Shown: positions 1-62,728 of the stretch, piece by piece | Numbering within the stretch: the stretch's first letter is position 1 | Layout: the number at the start of each line of letters is the position of its first letter | Source: Providencia vermicola | Lineage (GTDB): Bacteria > Pseudomonadota > Gammaproteobacteria > Enterobacterales > Enterobacteriaceae | Direction of reading: 5' to 3' | Assembly (NCBI RefSeq): GCF_020381325.1 | Contig: NZ_JAGSPI010000013.1 | Span: forward strand, 62,001-126,000 | Length of the DNA: 64,000 bases | Notes under the pieces: model-generated | Databases searched by the model: none | What the model saw: only the letters and a program-made list of their open reading frames with translations | Told to the model about the DNA's origin: nothing | Made by a program: the position numbers and the translations under genes

Positions 1-597
1 TGCGTCTAAGCATAAAATATCTCGTGTAGAGAATGGTTTACCTTTAGCTTTTGGTGGCGTATTTGGCAGTGTAAAACAGTAAAAGCCTAATACGACTGCA
101 ACCGCAGATGCGATATACCATGTCATGGTACTGCCAGAGAAGCCCATTTCCCCTAAAATAAATCCGATAGCCATAAAACCAAACGTACCGAATACACGAA
201 TGATAGGGAAATATTTCACACCATTAATATGGGAGAAGCTGATGCTATTAGAAAGTGCGGTTGTTGGGTAAAACAGCAGACCAATAATAAAGATCAAAAA
301 TAGGGTCATGCCACTGTTTTGTGCTTCAATAAATTGAGGAACACATAAAATGACGGCGGCATTAATTAAGTGAAGGATCCCCATCACTTTTTGTGAAGCA
401 AAGAAACGGTCAGCAACCATACCAATAAATAACGGTGAAATAATGGTCGCGACACCTAATAACGCATAAGCATTACCAATAATATGTGCCATACCATAGG
501 TACTTAATACCAGCCCCATCGTCATATTCCATGCACCTTGCATGAAATATTGCACAAACATCATGATCAGCAAGCGGGAAGTGATTTTCATATCCAT
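1..597 (-). CDS. MFS nucleoside:H+ symporter-like transporter (partial, C-terminus outside window)
   Basis: Minus-strand frame opens with ATG at 597 and stays open for 199 codons to the window edge, so the C-terminal half is missing. The N-terminal region has several hydrophobic helices and resembles the NupG/XapB nucleoside:H+ symporter family, with a typical loop after helix 2 (GMVADRFFA) and a later RVFGTFGF motif that matches RIWGTIGF of NupG. It should sit in the inner membrane and import a nucleoside or similar small polar solute. The PhnP-like gene ends 13 bases upstream on the same strand, so the two are probably co-transcribed, with this gene second. Substrate is not provable from sequence; sugar import is the main alternative. 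Confidence 0.75.
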   Translation of the reverse strand, partial: MDMKITSRLLIMMFVQYFMQGAWNMTMGLVLSTYGMAHIIGNAYALLGVATIISPLFIGMVADRFFASQKVMGILHLINAAVILCVPQFIEAQNSGMTLFLIFIIGLLFYPTTALSNSISFSHINGVKYFPIIRVFGTFGFMAIGFILGEMGFSGSTMTWYIASAVAVVLGFYCFTLPNTPPKAKGKPFSTRDILCLDA

Positions 598-610
598 TTT
601 TATTTCCCTC

Positions 611-1432
611 TTAATGTGTTTCTAACGTTAATCCGTCATATGCGACACGGATATTATAAGGAGCACAAACCGCCACTAATTCTTCATGCAGTAATTTACC
701 GCTGTGTGAAATATGAGAAACAGCAATTTGAGTATTAGAATGCAAACAACCTTGTTGTTGCAGCCTTTCTTGTGCTGCAAAGACGGTTTCTAGGCTCATA
801 TGGTTATCGGTATGGTTATTGCCATTTAGGCCATAAGTGCATTCGAATACAACAATATCTAGCGGTTTGTTTTCAAGCCATTGCCAAGTCAGCTCTGGGA
901 ACCAGCCTGAATCGTGGCCATAGAAAATCGCTTTGCCATCTTTTTCAATATGATAGACATAACAGAGCTCCCATTTCGCATGGTTTGCTAGTAATGGGGT
1001 AATTTTATATCCATTTCTTTCAACGGTGACAAAAGGGATTAAACAATGAAAAGCGAAACGCTCTTTGCTGTATCCCGGTAGCACTTCAAGGCAGCCATTG
1101 ATTGCACGATCGTTGCCAAATATGTGAAGTGGATGGTGAATTTCAAAGCCATAACCTTCCATTCGGCTGAACAGATCGCCCACATTAAAATGATCAGGGT
1201 GAGTGTGAGTGAATAGCAGGCTTTCAAAATGGGTTGCATCCATTCCATCACGCATCAGTTGATAACTAAATGTGGGAGATACGTCGATCAACATGAGGTC
1301 ATCCACAATAGCCGAGGAGTGAGTTCTGATATCTTTACCACCAAGTTGCCTTGCTTTTTGGCAGTGCTCACAACGGCAAAAAGGGTTTGGTATACCCTCT
1401 GAAGCCGCAGTGCCTAAAAAATGAATTTTCAT
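611..1432 (-). CDS. PhnP-like MBL-fold phosphodiesterase
   Basis: 273 aa metallo-beta-lactamase fold protein. The metal motif HTHPDH lies at residues 76-81, and an N-terminal C-x-C-x2-C cluster (C19, C21, C24) corresponds to the structural zinc site of PhnP, the phosphoribosyl cyclic phosphate phosphodiesterase of the C-P lyase pathway. A later NHAKW segment, GHDSGWF and a C-terminal SHISHSG give further ligands. There is no signal peptide, so it is cytoplasmic. No other phn genes are near; instead it heads a two-gene operon with the MFS transporter and faces a LacI-type regulator. I infer hydrolysis of a cyclic phosphate or related phosphodiester brought in by, or made from, the transported solute. 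Exact substrate unknown. Confidence 0.75.
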   Translation of the reverse strand: MKIHFLGTAASEGIPNPFCRCEHCQKARQLGGKDIRTHSSAIVDDLMLIDVSPTFSYQLMRDGMDATHFESLLFTHTHPDHFNVGDLFSRMEGYGFEIHHPLHIFGNDRAINGCLEVLPGYSKERFAFHCLIPFVTVERNGYKITPLLANHAKWELCYVYHIEKDGKAIFYGHDSGWFPELTWQWLENKPLDIVVFECTYGLNGNNHTDNHMSLETVFAAQERLQQQGCLHSNTQIAVSHISHSGKLLHEELVAVCAPYNIRVAYDGLTLETH

Positions 1433-1510
1433 GATAATTTCCTTTATCTTATTGTTTTATTTTGGGTTATTAAATCCCTGGTGCTGGTGTTAAATCGATA
1501 AAACTATTAT

Positions 1511-1523
1511 TTGAACGTTCCAA
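1511..1523 (+). promoter_or_regulatory. Putative LacI-family operator, copy 1
   Basis: TTGAACGTTCCAA, built on the perfect 8-base palindrome GAACGTTC with the central CG typical of LacI/GalR operators. It lies 79 bases upstream of the MBL gene start. The same 13 bases occur inverted at 1693-1705. Confidence 0.55.
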
Positions 1524-1692
1524 TGATAATTTGGTGGGGTTAGTTTGCCAATGATAGATATTCAGATCAGTGATCTCATTCAAATTAAAATAATTATCTA
1601 TTTGATTAATAGTGGTATTTTTTATTTTTTGCTTTATACGTATCGAATGTTAATACTTTCCATTATTTGATTGTTTTATCTGCATATTTATT

Positions 1693-1705
1693 TTGGAACG
1701 TTCAA
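1693..1705 (-). promoter_or_regulatory. Putative LacI-family operator, copy 2
   Basis: TTGGAACGTTCAA, the exact reverse complement of the site at 1511-1523, located 73 bases before the regulator ATG. The distance between site centres is 182 bases, which would suit a DNA loop. Autoregulation by the adjacent LacI-type protein is inferred. Confidence 0.55.
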
Positions 1706-1777
1706 ATTAATTATCGGTAGTCGTGATAAATAATTCAGGTATGCTATTGCGAGAAGCAACGTAAGGTGAAAAGACAA

Positions 1778-3988
1778 ATGGCAACAATTAAAGATATTGC
1801 AAAATTGGCGGGTGTTTCTCATGGAACGGTTTCTAACGTTTTGAATAAACGTGGAAATGTGAGTGTAGAGAAAATTGAGGCTGTCTATAAAGCAGCAAAG
1901 CAAATGGGGTACCAGCTCAATACACAAGCGCAATTGTTGAGAACCAATAAAAGCCACAAAATCGCGATACTATTACCTCAGTTAGTGTCCGATAAATACG
2001 CAATCTTTTTTAATTCATTTAGGCAATCAATCTCTTTGTATCCCGAGATAACCTATGATCTATTTTTGACGGATGATCTTGAAACAACAGAGTTAGATGC
2101 ATTACAAAAAATTGCAGCGGGTGGATATAAACAGGTGGTTGCTGTGAGCTGCTTGCAAGACGCGAACACTTATTTTGATACATTAAAATTACCTGCTTCT
2201 CAGATTGTGTTTATTTACCGCCAACCAGCTAATGCTCACCATTTTTTCACGTTAGATTTTTCTCAAGCTGCAGAGGCGATTTGCCAACAAATTGCGACCA
2301 GCCGCAGTCAACTGGTGGGGATTTTCAGCGATGAACATGGTGAATTAGAACATTCAACGTTTGTGAGTGAGTTACAAAAAAGCCTCAAGCAGTGTGCACC
2401 AAATAAAAAATATATTGTGATCCGAGCATCGAATGATGAATCCTATAAAGCGGCATTTGATTTTTTCACCTTAGACCAAACACCAGACTTGTTTGTTGCT
2501 GAAGATATTGAAAAAGCAAGTTTTTTAACTCAAGCCAGTTTTTTTGGTAGCAATAGCGATTGCCCTGCTATTTTTGCCTTAAGTGGTAATATTCCCCCAA
2601 TATTAAAAGGGCTACATTGTTTTCCGATGAATTATGCGCAGCTAGGGTTAGAGGTTGTTGATGAGCTAATGAAAGAGGATGAACTGGAAAGTGAGAACAT
2701 GGGAGCAAACACTGTTTATGTGCGCAACCAAAGTGGCAACCTCTATACTGCAACACCAGCACTTAGTACAGTTAATAAAGATGAGCCGAGTTTGAACCTC
2801 CTTATTTTGCCAAGTCCTTCGACAAATGCACTCAAAAAGCTCTTACCCCACTTTTATCGCCAAACGGGCATTAAGGTTAATTTAGCCATACATCCTTATG
2901 ACGAAGTCTACCAAATATTGGGACAGCTCCATTTACATCCTTATTATGATTTATTGCGGATTGATATGGCCTGTTTTCCTTGGTTTGCAGAGCGCATATT
3001 ACAGCCGCTAGATAACGTCGGGAACGGCTTAACGGATTTATTGAGCAGCTTTTCCAGACCAACCCAACAAAAATTTAGTTTAGTCGGGGACACTGCTTAT
3101 GCCATGCCATTTGATGCTAGTGCCCAGTTGTTGTTTTATCGAAAAGACTTGTTTGAAGATCCGATCCTAAAGCGCATGTATTACGAAAAAACAGGCAATG
3201 AATTGGCTGTGCCGACAAGTTTTCACGAATACGACCAAGTCACGCAGTTTTTTACAGAGCAGCATGAAAAAGGGCAATTTTCTCGCCCAATTGGTGCATC
3301 AACAACATTGGGAAGTGCTGGCTTAATAGCAAGTGAATATTTGCTGCGCTACTATGCAGAAGGTGGGCGGTTAATTGAGGGGGATGGTATTCCTCGATTA
3401 GAAATGCCTTTGGCAGGCAAAGTGTTAAGCGATTATCTACACCAAGTTTCTGTCACTGAAAATATCCATGAAAAGTGGTGGAGCGAATCCGTTAGGCAAT
3501 TTGAGCAAGGTGAACTTGCTATGTTAATTGCTTATATGAATCTGTTTAATGATGTGGCTCATAGCGATATTTTTCCAAAAATTGGTTATGCCTCTGTGCC
3601 TGGTGGGCTTCCACAACTCGGGGGAGGTGCACTCGGCGTATCTCGTTATAGTCAAAAATCACATTATGCGGAGCAATTTTATCGTTGGCTCTATTCACCT
3701 ATCGTGATGGATCATCTTATTTTATTGGGTGGGAATAGTAACCATCAAGATTTCAGCCATAACCAAGAAATCTGCCATCGCTACCCTTGGATGCCTCTGG
3801 CTTATCAAGAAATTAACCGTGGGATCCGCGAATCTTCCATTCCAAACGGTAAGTTATTTAATTTGCGCCAAGCTGAAGTGATTATTGGTCAAGGGATTAC
3901 TAATGTGGTGAATAAGATCATGACAATAGAAGAAACCATTGAATACATTAATCAGCGTTTATTAGTGGATACCCAAGGGGAACGATAG
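1778..3988 (+). CDS. LacI-type regulator fused to a solute-binding-protein domain
   Basis: 736 aa from the ATG at 1778, which is preceded by AAGGTG at nine bases; a GTG at 1766 is possible. Residues 1-50 are a LacI helix-turn-helix (ATIKDIAKLAGVS, then SNVLNKRG). Residues about 55-325 form a periplasmic-binding-like sensor domain as in normal LacI proteins. Residues about 338-730 add a second sensor resembling extracellular sugar-binding proteins of ABC importers (SBP family 1), with LPFYR-like and PGGLPQLGGG segments. No signal peptide exists, so the binding domain is cytoplasmic. The protein is about twice the normal LacI length. It probably controls the divergent MBL/MFS operon and itself through the paired operators. 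Ligand unknown; two ligand inputs are possible. Confidence 0.8.
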   Translation: MATIKDIAKLAGVSHGTVSNVLNKRGNVSVEKIEAVYKAAKQMGYQLNTQAQLLRTNKSHKIAILLPQLVSDKYAIFFNSFRQSISLYPEITYDLFLTDDLETTELDALQKIAAGGYKQVVAVSCLQDANTYFDTLKLPASQIVFIYRQPANAHHFFTLDFSQAAEAICQQIATSRSQLVGIFSDEHGELEHSTFVSELQKSLKQCAPNKKYIVIRASNDESYKAAFDFFTLDQTPDLFVAEDIEKASFLTQASFFGSNSDCPAIFALSGNIPPILKGLHCFPMNYAQLGLEVVDELMKEDELESENMGANTVYVRNQSGNLYTATPALSTVNKDEPSLNLLILPSPSTNALKKLLPHFYRQTGIKVNLAIHPYDEVYQILGQLHLHPYYDLLRIDMACFPWFAERILQPLDNVGNGLTDLLSSFSRPTQQKFSLVGDTAYAMPFDASAQLLFYRKDLFEDPILKRMYYEKTGNELAVPTSFHEYDQVTQFFTEQHEKGQFSRPIGASTTLGSAGLIASEYLLRYYAEGGRLIEGDGIPRLEMPLAGKVLSDYLHQVSVTENIHEKWWSESVRQFEQGELAMLIAYMNLFNDVAHSDIFPKIGYASVPGGLPQLGGGALGVSRYSQKSHYAEQFYRWLYSPIVMDHLILLGGNSNHQDFSHNQEICHRYPWMPLAYQEINRGIRESSIPNGKLFNLRQAEVIIGQGITNVVNKIMTIEETIEYINQRLLVDTQGER

Positions 3989-4425: not shown

Positions 4426-6138
4426 CTATTTTTGAAAGACTTTGTTACCAGCAAACCATGTTTGTTCAATTTTCCAGTTTCTAATATCTTGTGGTAAAGG
4501 CTCACTCACTGTGCCATCGATGATGGCAAAATCAGCCCATTTTCCTACACTGATACTTCCGATTTGATTTCCCCAACCTGCAATATCAGCAGGGGCTTGT
4601 GTGTATGCATAGAGCGCTTCATCAAATGAAAGTGCGTTTTCCCCATGCCACGTTTTTCCATCACGTTCACGTAATACCGCATCTCCAATTTGTAATAGAG
4701 GAATTTCAACGGCAGTTGGCCAATCACTACCGAGTACCAATTTTGCTCCACTGCTCAAGAGTGTTTGCCAAGCGTAGCTTCGTTCAAGGCGAGGTTCACC
4801 GAGTCGAGAGGGAATATAACTGCCTTGAATAGCGTGGTTAGGTTGCATAGAAGCAACGATATTGTATTGTGAGAATTTAGGGACAGTTTGGGTCTCGACC
4901 ACTTCAATGTGTTCAATACGATCTGGCAAGGTAGTTTGTCGAGGTGAAAGGCTAAATGCCTTCATGACCATGTCTACACTTTTATCACCAATCGCATGCA
5001 CTGCGACTGGGAAATTTTGCGCATGGGCAAGCTTAACCAGTTTATTGAGCTTATCTTGGCTATGAATTGGGGTTCCATGGAGAGAGGTATGATCGGAATA
5101 GGCTTCATTCAGTGCGGCGGTATAGGTTGACAACACTCCATCAGCAAAATATTTGATATATCCTAAACGGAATTGGGGGCCTTGTTGCCATATTTTTTCT
5201 TGTTTTTTTGATAATGAGTTCATCTTATCACGCTGGTTGGCATAGCGTTGAAACACTTCTGGTGTGGCTTGTGAGTCAGAACTATCGGCCATTAAACCAA
5301 ACCACACTCGCATTGAAAAGGGTTCCGTGGCGAGAAGCTCTTGATAGGCCTTAATGTCCTCGGACCACATATCATGCACAGAGGTAACACCTAAGCTATT
5401 AAAATACTGGATGATATTCCTCAATGCCGCCGTTTTGGAGGGTTCAGCTTTTTTATAAATAGCTGATTGTGTCACGAGCTCCATCGCATTTTCTTTTAAA
5501 ATTCCTGTCGGTTCTCCCGTTTTAGCGTCTTTAACAATGACTCCCCCAGTGGGTGACTCGGTTTGCGCTGTAATATTCAGTAATTTCATTGCCGCGGTAT
5601 TAATCCACATGGAATGAAAATCGCTGTCTAATAATGCGATGGGGCGGTCAGGTACAACTGCATCAAGTTCGTGTCGTGTAGGTAAATCTTGCTGTTCAGT
5701 TAACGTTACATCCCAACGTCCGCCTACAATCCATGCGCCATCTGGAAGCTCTTTATCTTTTTTGGCAATAATCTCTAACCACTGAGCGCGGTCGGCAATA
5801 TTAAATAAATCGACACCAAATGCTAAATCTGTTCCCCCTAAAAAGTGGGTATGTGCATCTGTTAAGCCTGGGATAACGGTATGACCTTTCGCATCAATCA
5901 CTTTCGTTTTTTCATTTTGTAACTTTTTAACATAAAACTCACTGCCAACGGCGATAAATTTACCGTCTTGTATGGCAAATGATTGAGCGCGAGGTTTTGA
6001 TGGATCGACAGTACGAACATCTGCATTTAGCACAATAATATCTGCAATGGGCAGCGTTGATTGTGCATATGAAAAGAGGGCGGTTGTCGACATCGCAATA
6101 GCAAGGCTAAGACGAGTTAATTTATTTGAGAATGGCAT
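4426..6138 (-). CDS. Exported YtcJ-like amidohydrolase
   Basis: 570 aa amidohydrolase family 3 protein (YtcJ/NfdA type). Residues 1-26 are a Sec signal peptide (basic start, hydrophobic core, cleavage after SYA), so the enzyme should act in the periplasm; many relatives are cytoplasmic. Metal-binding motifs are complete: DAHTH (H96, H98), a later HAIGD, an HIE and the terminal GSDWP aspartate. Relatives hydrolyse N-acyl or N-formyl amide bonds, but the substrate here is unknown. The start follows AGGATG at four bases. A LysR gene ends 182 bases upstream on the same strand and may regulate it. It lies within the tRNA-Phe island remnant, and its own terminator follows. The frame is intact. Confidence 0.85.
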   Translation of the reverse strand: MPFSNKLTRLSLAIAMSTTALFSYAQSTLPIADIIVLNADVRTVDPSKPRAQSFAIQDGKFIAVGSEFYVKKLQNEKTKVIDAKGHTVIPGLTDAHTHFLGGTDLAFGVDLFNIADRAQWLEIIAKKDKELPDGAWIVGGRWDVTLTEQQDLPTRHELDAVVPDRPIALLDSDFHSMWINTAAMKLLNITAQTESPTGGVIVKDAKTGEPTGILKENAMELVTQSAIYKKAEPSKTAALRNIIQYFNSLGVTSVHDMWSEDIKAYQELLATEPFSMRVWFGLMADSSDSQATPEVFQRYANQRDKMNSLSKKQEKIWQQGPQFRLGYIKYFADGVLSTYTAALNEAYSDHTSLHGTPIHSQDKLNKLVKLAHAQNFPVAVHAIGDKSVDMVMKAFSLSPRQTTLPDRIEHIEVVETQTVPKFSQYNIVASMQPNHAIQGSYIPSRLGEPRLERSYAWQTLLSSGAKLVLGSDWPTAVEIPLLQIGDAVLRERDGKTWHGENALSFDEALYAYTQAPADIAGWGNQIGSISVGKWADFAIIDGTVSEPLPQDIRNWKIEQTWFAGNKVFQK

Positions 6139-6320: not shown

Positions 6321-7175
6321 CTATCGAAATTGGTTGATCACCCAATTAGCGGCAGGGCCTAGCTCGGTGTTTCTCGACCAAATTAAATCTAGGGGGACTG
6401 TTTTAGGGTATCCAGGAAGCGATAGGCGCGTTAGCTGCTTTTGTGCATATAAATCAACAAGCTCATGGGGGAGTTCTACCCAACCAAATTGCTGTATCGC
6501 CATTTCCATTAACATTAAATATTGGGGAGCAGACCATATTTTAGAATGAAAAGGTTTTTGATCTCCATGAATATGATTTAGATATAATTGCCTATACGGC
6601 ATTAAGTCTTTATAGGATAAGTTTTTCACCGATGCTAAAGGATGGCTGTGAGCAACGTATAAACTTAAATGTGAGGTCAGTGCTAATTTAGAGACAGTAA
6701 TATCGGCAGGGTATTTATCCATAGACAGAATAATACCTAAATGTGCCCTTTTATCTTGTAATAATTTCACCGCATCAATATTTTCTGCAACGATACATTC
6801 GAGTTCCACATCAGGAAACGCTTTGGAAAATTCAGCCATAAGGTGTGCTTGGGGGGTAATGTAATGGTCAGAAAACACGATAGTTAGGCAATGCTCTATA
6901 TTTTCAGCTAATCGGCACGTTAGAGCATAAAGGTTTTCATTTGCTGAAATAATATCAAGTGCATGGTTGTACACTTTTCTGCCCGCTTCGGTGAGTGTCG
7001 GTTTTCGAAATTGCCTATCAAATAGTGTCAGACCCAAATCAATTTCTAAATTCGCAATGGCCGTACTAATGGTGGATTGACTCTTTCCCAACTTGCGGGC
7101 GGCTAATGTGAATGAGCGTTGAGAGACTATCTCGATAAACGCCCAGAGAGCTTCGGGGGAGTATGATTTAAGCAT
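6321..7175 (-). CDS. LysR-family transcriptional regulator
   Basis: 284 aa. Residues about 5-65 form the winged helix-turn-helix (FTLAARKLGKSQSTISTAIANLE, listed here only by its key words SQSTIS), and the remainder is a LysR substrate-binding domain with a typical LYVAHSHPL segment. Slightly short for the family (about 300 aa) but complete. It is upstream of and in line with the exported amidohydrolase, with 182 bases between, so it may control that gene or a lost neighbour. Inducer unknown. It sits inside the island remnant at tRNA-Phe, so acquisition by transfer is likely. Confidence 0.85.
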   Translation of the reverse strand: MLKSYSPEALWAFIEIVSQRSFTLAARKLGKSQSTISTAIANLEIDLGLTLFDRQFRKPTLTEAGRKVYNHALDIISANENLYALTCRLAENIEHCLTIVFSDHYITPQAHLMAEFSKAFPDVELECIVAENIDAVKLLQDKRAHLGIILSMDKYPADITVSKLALTSHLSLYVAHSHPLASVKNLSYKDLMPYRQLYLNHIHGDQKPFHSKIWSAPQYLMLMEMAIQQFGWVELPHELVDLYAQKQLTRLSLPGYPKTVPLDLIWSRNTELGPAANWVINQFR

Positions 7176-62158: not shown

Positions 62159-62251
62159 GGTGAGGTGGCCGAGAGGCTGAAGGCGCTCCCCTGCTAAGGG
62201 AGTATGCGGTCAAAAGCTGCATCGAGGGTTCGAATCCCTCCCTCACCGCCA
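62159..62251 (+). tRNA. tRNA-Ser (GCT)
   Basis: 93 bases with encoded CCA. Long variable arm, acceptor GGTGAGG/CCTCACC, anticodon loop CTGCTAA with GCT. Matches E. coli serV, which also sits after csrA. Confidence 0.97.
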
Positions 62252-62262
62252 TTTTAGATTAT

Positions 62263-62339
62263 GCATCCGTAGCTCAGCTGGATAGAGTACTCGGCTACGA
62301 ACCGAGCGGTCGGAGGTTCGAATCCTCCCGGATGCACCA
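62263..62339 (+). tRNA. tRNA-Arg (ACG), copy 1
   Basis: 77 bases with CCA. Acceptor GCATCCG/CGGATGC, anticodon loop CTACGAA with ACG (A34 expected to become inosine), T-arm GGTTCGAATCC. Equivalent to the E. coli argV-argY-argZ-argQ cluster. Confidence 0.97.
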
Positions 62340-62484
62340 TATTAACCCTACAGGGAAGCCTAGTTGGGTTCTATTTTGGTTCTACTTAGTGAGTAATCAA
62401 AATAGCGCAGTAACGAAGAAATTGATTTACAGAAGTAGATGTTGATAAGAAGTTTGAGAGAGAAGCACGTCTTGCAGTAACTAT

Positions 62485-62561
62485 GCATCCGTAGCTCAGC
62501 TGGATAGAGTACTCGGCTACGAACCGAGCGGTCGGAGGTTCGAATCCTCCCGGATGCACCA
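62485..62561 (+). tRNA. tRNA-Arg (ACG), copy 2
   Basis: Identical over all 77 bases to copy 1; starts 222 bases after it. Confidence 0.97.
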
Positions 62562-62651
62562 TCTCTTAGCTAATTAGTTAGCGTATCAATAATCCATTTA
62601 GTGTATACATTCTCAGTTATTGAATTAATCGATATTTATCGACAGAATTTT

Positions 62652-62728
62652 GCATCCGTAGCTCAGCTGGATAGAGTACTCGGCTACGAACCGAGCGGTC
62701 GGAGGTTCGAATCCTCCCGGATGCACCA
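62652..62728 (+). tRNA. tRNA-Arg (ACG), copy 3
   Basis: Identical over all 77 bases to copies 1 and 2; starts 167 bases after copy 2. Confidence 0.97.

Follow-up and report, generated by a model that had tools for sequence, protein, structure and literature searches.

The 64,000-nucleotide stretch of Providencia vermicola DNA analysed here (contig NZ_JAGSPI010000013.1, positions 62,001 to 126,000; hereafter the window) begins with a small gene module whose regulator joins a LacI-type repressor to a solute-binding protein (SBP). The regulator gene stands divergent from the genes of a metallo-beta-lactamase (MBL)-fold enzyme and a major facilitator superfamily (MFS) transporter, all three being located where a first-pass annotation of the sequence had put them. 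The regulator occupies a 740-amino-acid open reading frame with a GTG start on the forward strand (1766-3988); because the N-terminus of its relatives reads M(A/P)TIKDIAK, we assign the most likely start to ATG 1778, which gives a protein of 736 residues. On the reverse strand, sequence comparison places a PhnP-like MBL-fold hydrolase of 273 amino acids at 611..1432 and, at 1..597, the N-terminal part of an MFS transporter of the NupG/YegT (nucleoside-H+ symporter, NHS) type, whose gene is cut by the window edge. In the flanking DNA the complete transporter has 415 amino acids and reaches ~650 bases before the window start, and 23 bases beyond its end lies an MgtC/SapB gene, the fourth gene of the module, which was missed at first because it is outside the window. 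The MgtC/SapB protein linked to the window matches NCBIfam profiles under their cut-offs, and a relative from f9, a family that we take to be Pasteurellaceae, passes Pfam MgtC. The MBL and MFS genes look like one operon running out past the window start.

The regulator has three parts. Residues 1-57 of 736 (1778..1948, forward strand) form a LacI-type helix-turn-helix and hinge, recognised by Pfam LacI at residues 7-50 of the 740-residue numbering with 53.4 bits against a cut-off of 27. Residues 58-330 (1949..2767, forward strand) form a divergent LacI-type core, in which no Pfam family is matched; it was assigned by structural alignment of its AlphaFold2 model, which superimposes on LacI-family and ribose/glucose-binding chains with Z ~22 and a root-mean-square deviation of ~2.5-3 over ~255 residues. 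Residues 337-736 (2786..3985, forward strand), the proposed ligand sensor, constitute an SBP family 1 domain: Pfam SBP_bac_1 matches residues 352-645 (740-residue numbering) with 56.9 bits against a cut-off of 26 (E 4e-15), spanning profile positions 4-303 of 307, and a profile of this part searched against the PDB finds solved SBPs, the best being 5iai (E 7e-12), with resemblance to the sugar-binding SBPs for trehalose/maltose and for sulfoquinovosyl glycerol. The domain is internal to a DNA-binding protein and has no signal peptide, and an ABC (ATP-binding cassette) permease is absent from the four-gene module. The first-pass description of a LacI-SBP regulator without signal peptide that faces the operon is thus borne out, with both Pfam matches above their cut-offs.

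The three parts have been kept to very different degrees. Pairwise comparison of 13 diverse members gives average identities of 71% for the DNA-binding part, 45% for the SBP and 31% for the LacI core; invariant columns number 26 of 57, 55 of 408 and 11 of 276, respectively. We compared the pocket residues of the core with those of five LacI proteins from the source genome, eight other LacI loci being left out, and took the Arg of the R..G motif and the Asp of the G-F/Y-D motif to be the effector pocket residues of the family. The arginine is found in all five of these LacI proteins and in none of the 13 regulators (one has an Arg one column off). The aspartate is aligned in 0/13 regulators, a shifted alignment allowing at most 6/13, and the window regulator has a glycine where it is expected; in two f9 members the core is, moreover, shortened. 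Given a core that has diverged and lacks the effector arginine, and an SBP that has been kept better, we favour a sensor swap over two working pockets, in which, judging from these alignments, the LacI core is probably a scaffold that may serve dimerisation and the SBP is the proposed sensor. The regulator with two ligand pockets imagined in the first-pass annotation is at odds with a core that is the least conserved part of the protein. An alternative is that the core still senses the inducer, with the SBP acting as a second input or in oligomerisation or partner-protein binding. The core does keep its fold, and in the LacI family a core can respond to a corepressor protein, as in the CcpA-HPr structures that are among the structural matches of this one; yet the arginine missing from every member, the shortened f9 cores and the higher conservation of the SBP make this alternative improbable.

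To see the regulator in context, we compared 69 loci holding the MBL gene. They fall into 34 clusters at 90% identity and are therefore far from independent, some being one genome twice (e.g. L022 and L025); L024, lacking the MBL gene, was left out, as were short loci repeating these places. The MFS gene adjoins the MBL gene in 68 of the 69, the exception (L043) being a short contig; the regulator lies within the locus in 52 (50 whole, L021 broken and L043 in pieces), and MgtC in 39. Since the set of LacI-SBP regulator, PhnP-like enzyme and MFS transporter recurs in other genomes, as the first-pass annotation required, the association of the three genes is not a matter of chance. The regulator is mostly divergent from the MBL gene; in f9 loci and in those of f27, a family taken as Orbaceae, it stands behind MFS, MgtC or GalT, with two genes intervening in L119.

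At a threshold of E 1e-30, MBL orthologues were found in 23 of the 394 genomes searched from the order, in 14 of 295 from the family, in 9 of 56 from f3 (taken as Succinivibrionaceae) and in 6 of 140 from f9; in the class sample of 369 genomes, the source genome alone has one. With up to three candidates scored per genome, 14 of 350 genomes of the order are positive for the regulator, every one among the 23 that are positive for the MBL gene, and across the class a full-length regulator is found only in the source genome among 303 sampled, 13 other listed genomes matching over the LacI part only. By these sequence matches the regulator looks dedicated to this module. Among 24 genomes of the genus, the source included, it is whole in nine and broken in one; relatives are found in Proteus (76-80%), in Raoultella, Klebsiella and an uncultured Pluralibacter (46-54%) and on E. 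coli plasmids (49%). Of 5426 complete E. coli genomes, 46 contain the cassette, at 44 plasmid and 2 chromosomal places. One E. coli plasmid record has MgtC, MFS, MBL and fusion genes consecutively, the fusion being annotated only as 'extracellular solute-binding protein'; its DNA-binding domain goes unmentioned there. Several of the E. coli plasmids bearing the cassette (e.g. L044) come from poultry and from people. The cassette is found in gut-associated and related bacteria and can travel, and it decays in some strains: in L021, from genome G012 of the same genus, the regulator gene is interrupted by stops and frameshifts and the MFS gene is split; the MBL and MgtC genes look whole. Two copies of the module are present in genome G011 (L016 and L019); the regulator of the second copy shows 53% identity, and galT-galE lies downstream of this copy. 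A Klebsiella michiganensis strain carries pieces on two contigs, a shortened MFS gene in L039 and a short MBL frame with the regulator in pieces in L043, to be explained either by a second copy or by faulty assembly.

The divergent intergenic region of the window holds two operator-like palindromes 183 bases apart, TTTGAACGTTCCAA (1510..1523) upstream of the MBL gene and TTGGAACGTTCAAA (1693..1706) upstream of the regulator, both recognised from their sequence. A palindrome near TTGnnACGTnnCAA stands upstream of the MBL gene in all 52 loci that hold the regulator, the related site lying ~34-109 bases from the gene, and the motif occurs in 3 of the 17 loci without the regulator; base shuffles predict it in 0.4 of the 69 loci. 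The three exceptions (G203, G254 and G083) have the regulator at another genomic place, and the 14 genomes without the motif give no regulator match at E 1e-30 anywhere; nine of these 14 are f3 drafts, including one with a completeness of 82%. Counted by 90%-identity cluster, 21 have both motif and regulator and 13 have neither. It weakens this agreement that the motif pattern was defined after the sites had been seen; the genome-wide regulator test came later and for this reason weighs more. Within the loci, which total 1.16 Mb, the strict form TTGnnACGWnnCAA has 38 sites, of which 34 stand directly upstream of an MBL gene; it misses 22 of the 52 regulator loci, the window's own sites included. 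Across the whole source genome, a loose pattern has 114 and 107 matches compared with 106 and 104 for a reversed control, and we thus claim no wider regulon; among the genomic matches without mismatch, TTGGAACGTTCAAA is found just twice, both times at this locus. The palindrome score of a single locus is rarely significant, being often reached by 13-29 of 300 shuffles and for several loci by 70-119, so that the evidence for operators is their co-occurrence with the regulator across loci. Taken together, the sites suggest that the regulator probably controls the uptake-plus-hydrolysis operon that it faces. A candidate promoter of the MBL operon, TTGGCA-17-TATCAT (1523..1551, reverse strand), touches the first operator-like site, the number of such promoters being not above chance (3 candidates, 2.7 expected); from this contact and by analogy with the LacI family, the regulator may repress both the operon and its own gene.

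Among proteins of solved structure, the MBL enzyme is closest to PhnP, with which it shares 29% identity. The PhnP residues C21, C23, C26, H76, H78, D80, H81, H143, D164, H200, H222 and H225, which we take to comprise the metal site, the structural Cys/His residues and the catalytic H200, are kept in 69/69 enzymes, while the NCBIfam PhnP equivalog scores 85.8 against a cut-off of 272.25. The C-P (carbon-phosphorus) lyase component PhnJ was not found in the source genome in a search whose E. coli control was positive, and a role of the enzyme in C-P lyase was dropped on this ground. A 29% relative of the enzyme lies on a Cetobacterium plasmid (L152), in an operon where it follows genes for a histidine phosphatase, a PhnD-like protein, phnC, phnE and phnE, possibly a separate organophosphate system.

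The window part of the MFS transporter matches Pfam Nuc_H_symport with 136.6 bits, over the gathering score, and the full protein scores 272.1 with the NCBIfam nucleoside permease, whose cut-off is 446.1. In the 66 of the 69 loci that gave a long enough stretch for residue comparison, the NHS proton site is always kept, with equivalents of NupG D323 and E264 and with G319 and D323 as a GxxxD motif in 66/66. The position of Q261, presumably also a NupG contact, is I, V or T in these transporters. The uridine contacts listed in PMC11979927 are F143, N228, Y318 and F322. Of these, Y318 has become Q and F322 W in 66/66; the equivalent of N228 is uncertain, being Lys in one alignment and a gap in the other, and an invariant lysine lies at or near it that the two alignments place differently. 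YegT, the nearest solved transporter, gave no significant binding of the nucleosides tested, according to PMC11979927.

The partner genes offer a clue to the pathway. In f3 loci, a phosphoglucomutase gene stands directly upstream of the MBL gene in 8/9, and a sodium/phosphate (Na/Pi) transporter gene lies within the locus in 8/9, adjoining the MFS gene in seven; three Na/Pi transporters were scored against Pfam and the others assigned by likeness to these. GalT is encoded within 6 of the 69 loci, including 5/6 f9 loci, in four of which it stands in line after MgtC; in L127 (f9), galT-galK-galM diverges from the MBL gene, with operator-like sites in the interval, and in the Providencia copy L019 the downstream galT-galE is convergent. 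Neither nucleoside phosphorylase nor ribokinase is among the annotated partner genes. Phosphoglucomutase, GalT and the Na/Pi transporter point to hexose-1-phosphate, and these partners together with the Cetobacterium relative suggest, by sequence assignment, import of an organophosphate and release of hexose-1-phosphate. MgtC occupies the place that the Na/Pi transporter has in f3, which suggests a phosphate-related task.

We thus propose that the module is an inducible salvage operon for phosphorylated hexose, a reading to which we give an even chance. In this mechanism, the MFS transporter would import a small hexosyl-1-phosphodiester with protons, and the PhnP-like enzyme would hydrolyse the diester to hexose-1-phosphate (Glc-1-P or Gal-1-P), which phosphoglucomutase or GalT, encoded beside the module in some lineages, could pass into metabolism. 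MgtC, or the Na/Pi transporter in another family, may balance the imported phosphate. The LacI-type regulator would repress the operon and itself from the palindromic operators until the fused SBP binds its ligand in the cytoplasm and repression is released, the LacI core acting only as a scaffold. The most specific candidate for the substrate is perhaps hexose 1,2-cyclic phosphate, by analogy the compound closest to the substrate of PhnP.

Several observations count against this proposal. The SBP part is poorly modelled, with a mean predicted local distance difference test (pLDDT) score mostly of 25-50 in the whole regulator and of 44.2 when folded alone, probably because its alignment had just 14 close relatives; as the fold model is of low confidence, the family assignment depends on sequence, and a Foldseek search with the pLDDT 44 model, in which SBPs rank top at template-modelling (TM) scores of only 0.1-0.24, was not counted. 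The three of eight phosphoglucomutase proteins scored against NCBIfam reach 629-703 bits, all below the pgm cut-off of 778, the remaining ones being assigned by likeness to these three. Linkage to phosphoglucomutase and linkage to GalT are each confined to few lineages, GalT being in the six loci mentioned and convergent in L019, and 14 genomes have the MBL and MFS genes without this regulator. In the transporters, NupG F143 is kept in 57/66 (Tyr in nine), and the residue replacing F322 is still aromatic. Hexose 1,2-cyclic phosphate would, in addition, have to be a natural nutrient. Lastly, Salmonella MgtC is reported to promote, rather than limit, phosphate uptake (PMC6658541), which is at odds with a simple role in relief.

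In a bolder form of the hexose-phosphate reading, the pathway would be dedicated to hexose 1,2-cyclic phosphate arising from UDP- or ADP-sugar breakdown in animal guts, with import by a non-nucleoside NHS transporter, opening by the PhnP-like enzyme and a repressor class in which a captured SBP has replaced the LacI sensor as intracellular receptor; in this full form we consider it rather unlikely. As an example in support of natural occurrence, a 1,2-cyclic phosphate of apiose is reported to arise from UDP-apiose breakdown (PMC5607165); in the open-access literature searched, no bacterial use of cyclic sugar phosphates was recognised by titles and abstracts.

Among the competing explanations of the substrate, salvage of a nucleotide or ribose-phosphate is closest to the first-pass annotation: the MFS transporter would take up, and the MBL enzyme would open, a nucleoside-like ester such as a 2',3'-cyclic nucleotide. 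Membership of the transporter in the nucleoside-H+ symporter Pfam family, the mostly kept F143 and the position of PhnP as nearest solved relative of the enzyme are all in line with it. The invariant replacement of Y318 and F322, the I, V or T at Q261, the lack of significant nucleoside binding by YegT in PMC11979927, the absence of PhnJ and partners of hexose type without nucleoside phosphorylase or ribokinase tell against it, so that the nucleoside- or ribose-phosphate substrate first suggested is weakened, only the F143 position still favouring it among the contacts, and the explanation appears unlikely. Least probable of all is uptake of a neutral galactoside or glucoside with the MBL enzyme as another hydrolase (of a lactone or ester) and the phosphate-related neighbours coincidental, which the likeness of the SBP domain to trehalose/maltose and sulfoquinovosyl glycerol binders and the galT-galK-galM adjoining in L127 would suit, and which the full PhnP-type ligand set with its H200 equivalent, the Na/Pi transporter in f3 loci and the phosphonate-type ABC importer beside the Cetobacterium relative speak against.

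Other features of the surroundings lie outside the module. Tail to tail with the fusion gene stands a gene for an Amidohydro_3 protein with a signal-like start (4426-6138), followed by one for a LysR regulator (6321-7175) whose best NCBIfam match, AceR, is far under cut-off. Both were considered as members of the module and dropped, the Amidohydro_3 protein being without a match in the related loci compared. About 7-10 kb before the window, genes like those of a ribose-type ABC sugar importer (permease, ATPase and periplasmic binding protein; L013 1-1838 and 1996-2910) were noticed by eye only, and at 62159-62728 of the window a tRNA-Ser and three tRNA-Arg(acg) genes follow one another.

In summary, our analysis defines a mobile catabolic cassette with a testable substrate class. 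If our reading is true, a LacI repressor can adopt the binding protein of an ABC importer as its cytoplasmic sensor as the original one decays, and such modular sensor exchange in nature might guide biosensor design. The reading would likewise give PhnP-like enzymes a function outside C-P lyase and offer a starting point for NHS transporters that, like YegT, showed no significant binding of nucleosides when measured. Neither the module nor LacI-SBP fusions were found in the open-access literature searched, and by a term search of a LacI regulon survey (PMC4052901) fused regulators and solute-binding domains go unmentioned there.

Compared with LacI/GalR repressors such as LacI, PurR and CcpA, the regulator shares the DNA-binding domain, the hinge, the core fold, CpG-centred palindromic operator-like sites and a target operon that is divergent or nearby, but it differs by an additional SBP_bac_1 domain of ~400 residues and by a divergent core that has lost the pocket arginine. 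With SBP family 1 (5iai, the trehalose/maltose-binding protein and SmoF) it shares a near full-length Pfam and PDB profile match, whereas here the domain is part of a DNA-binding protein and the module has no cognate ABC permease. LysR-type regulators use a type II binding-protein fold as cytoplasmic sensor and in this resemble a regulator that would sense through an SBP; their DNA-binding domain is, however, another one, and the SBP here is of family 1 and placed behind a LacI core. The enzyme has all metal-site, structural Cys/His and H200 residues of PhnP, the phosphoribosyl 1,2-cyclic phosphodiesterase, but is only 29% identical to it, stays below the NCBIfam cut-off, belongs to a genome without PhnJ and has as partners an MFS transporter and, elsewhere, hexose-1-phosphate genes. 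The transporter agrees with NupG and YegT in family membership, in the proton-site Asp (NupG D323), E264 and R136 and mostly in F143, and departs from them in the replaced Y318 and F322, the uncertain N228 and a score under the nucleoside permease cut-off. The parts are thus known, and their combination is new.

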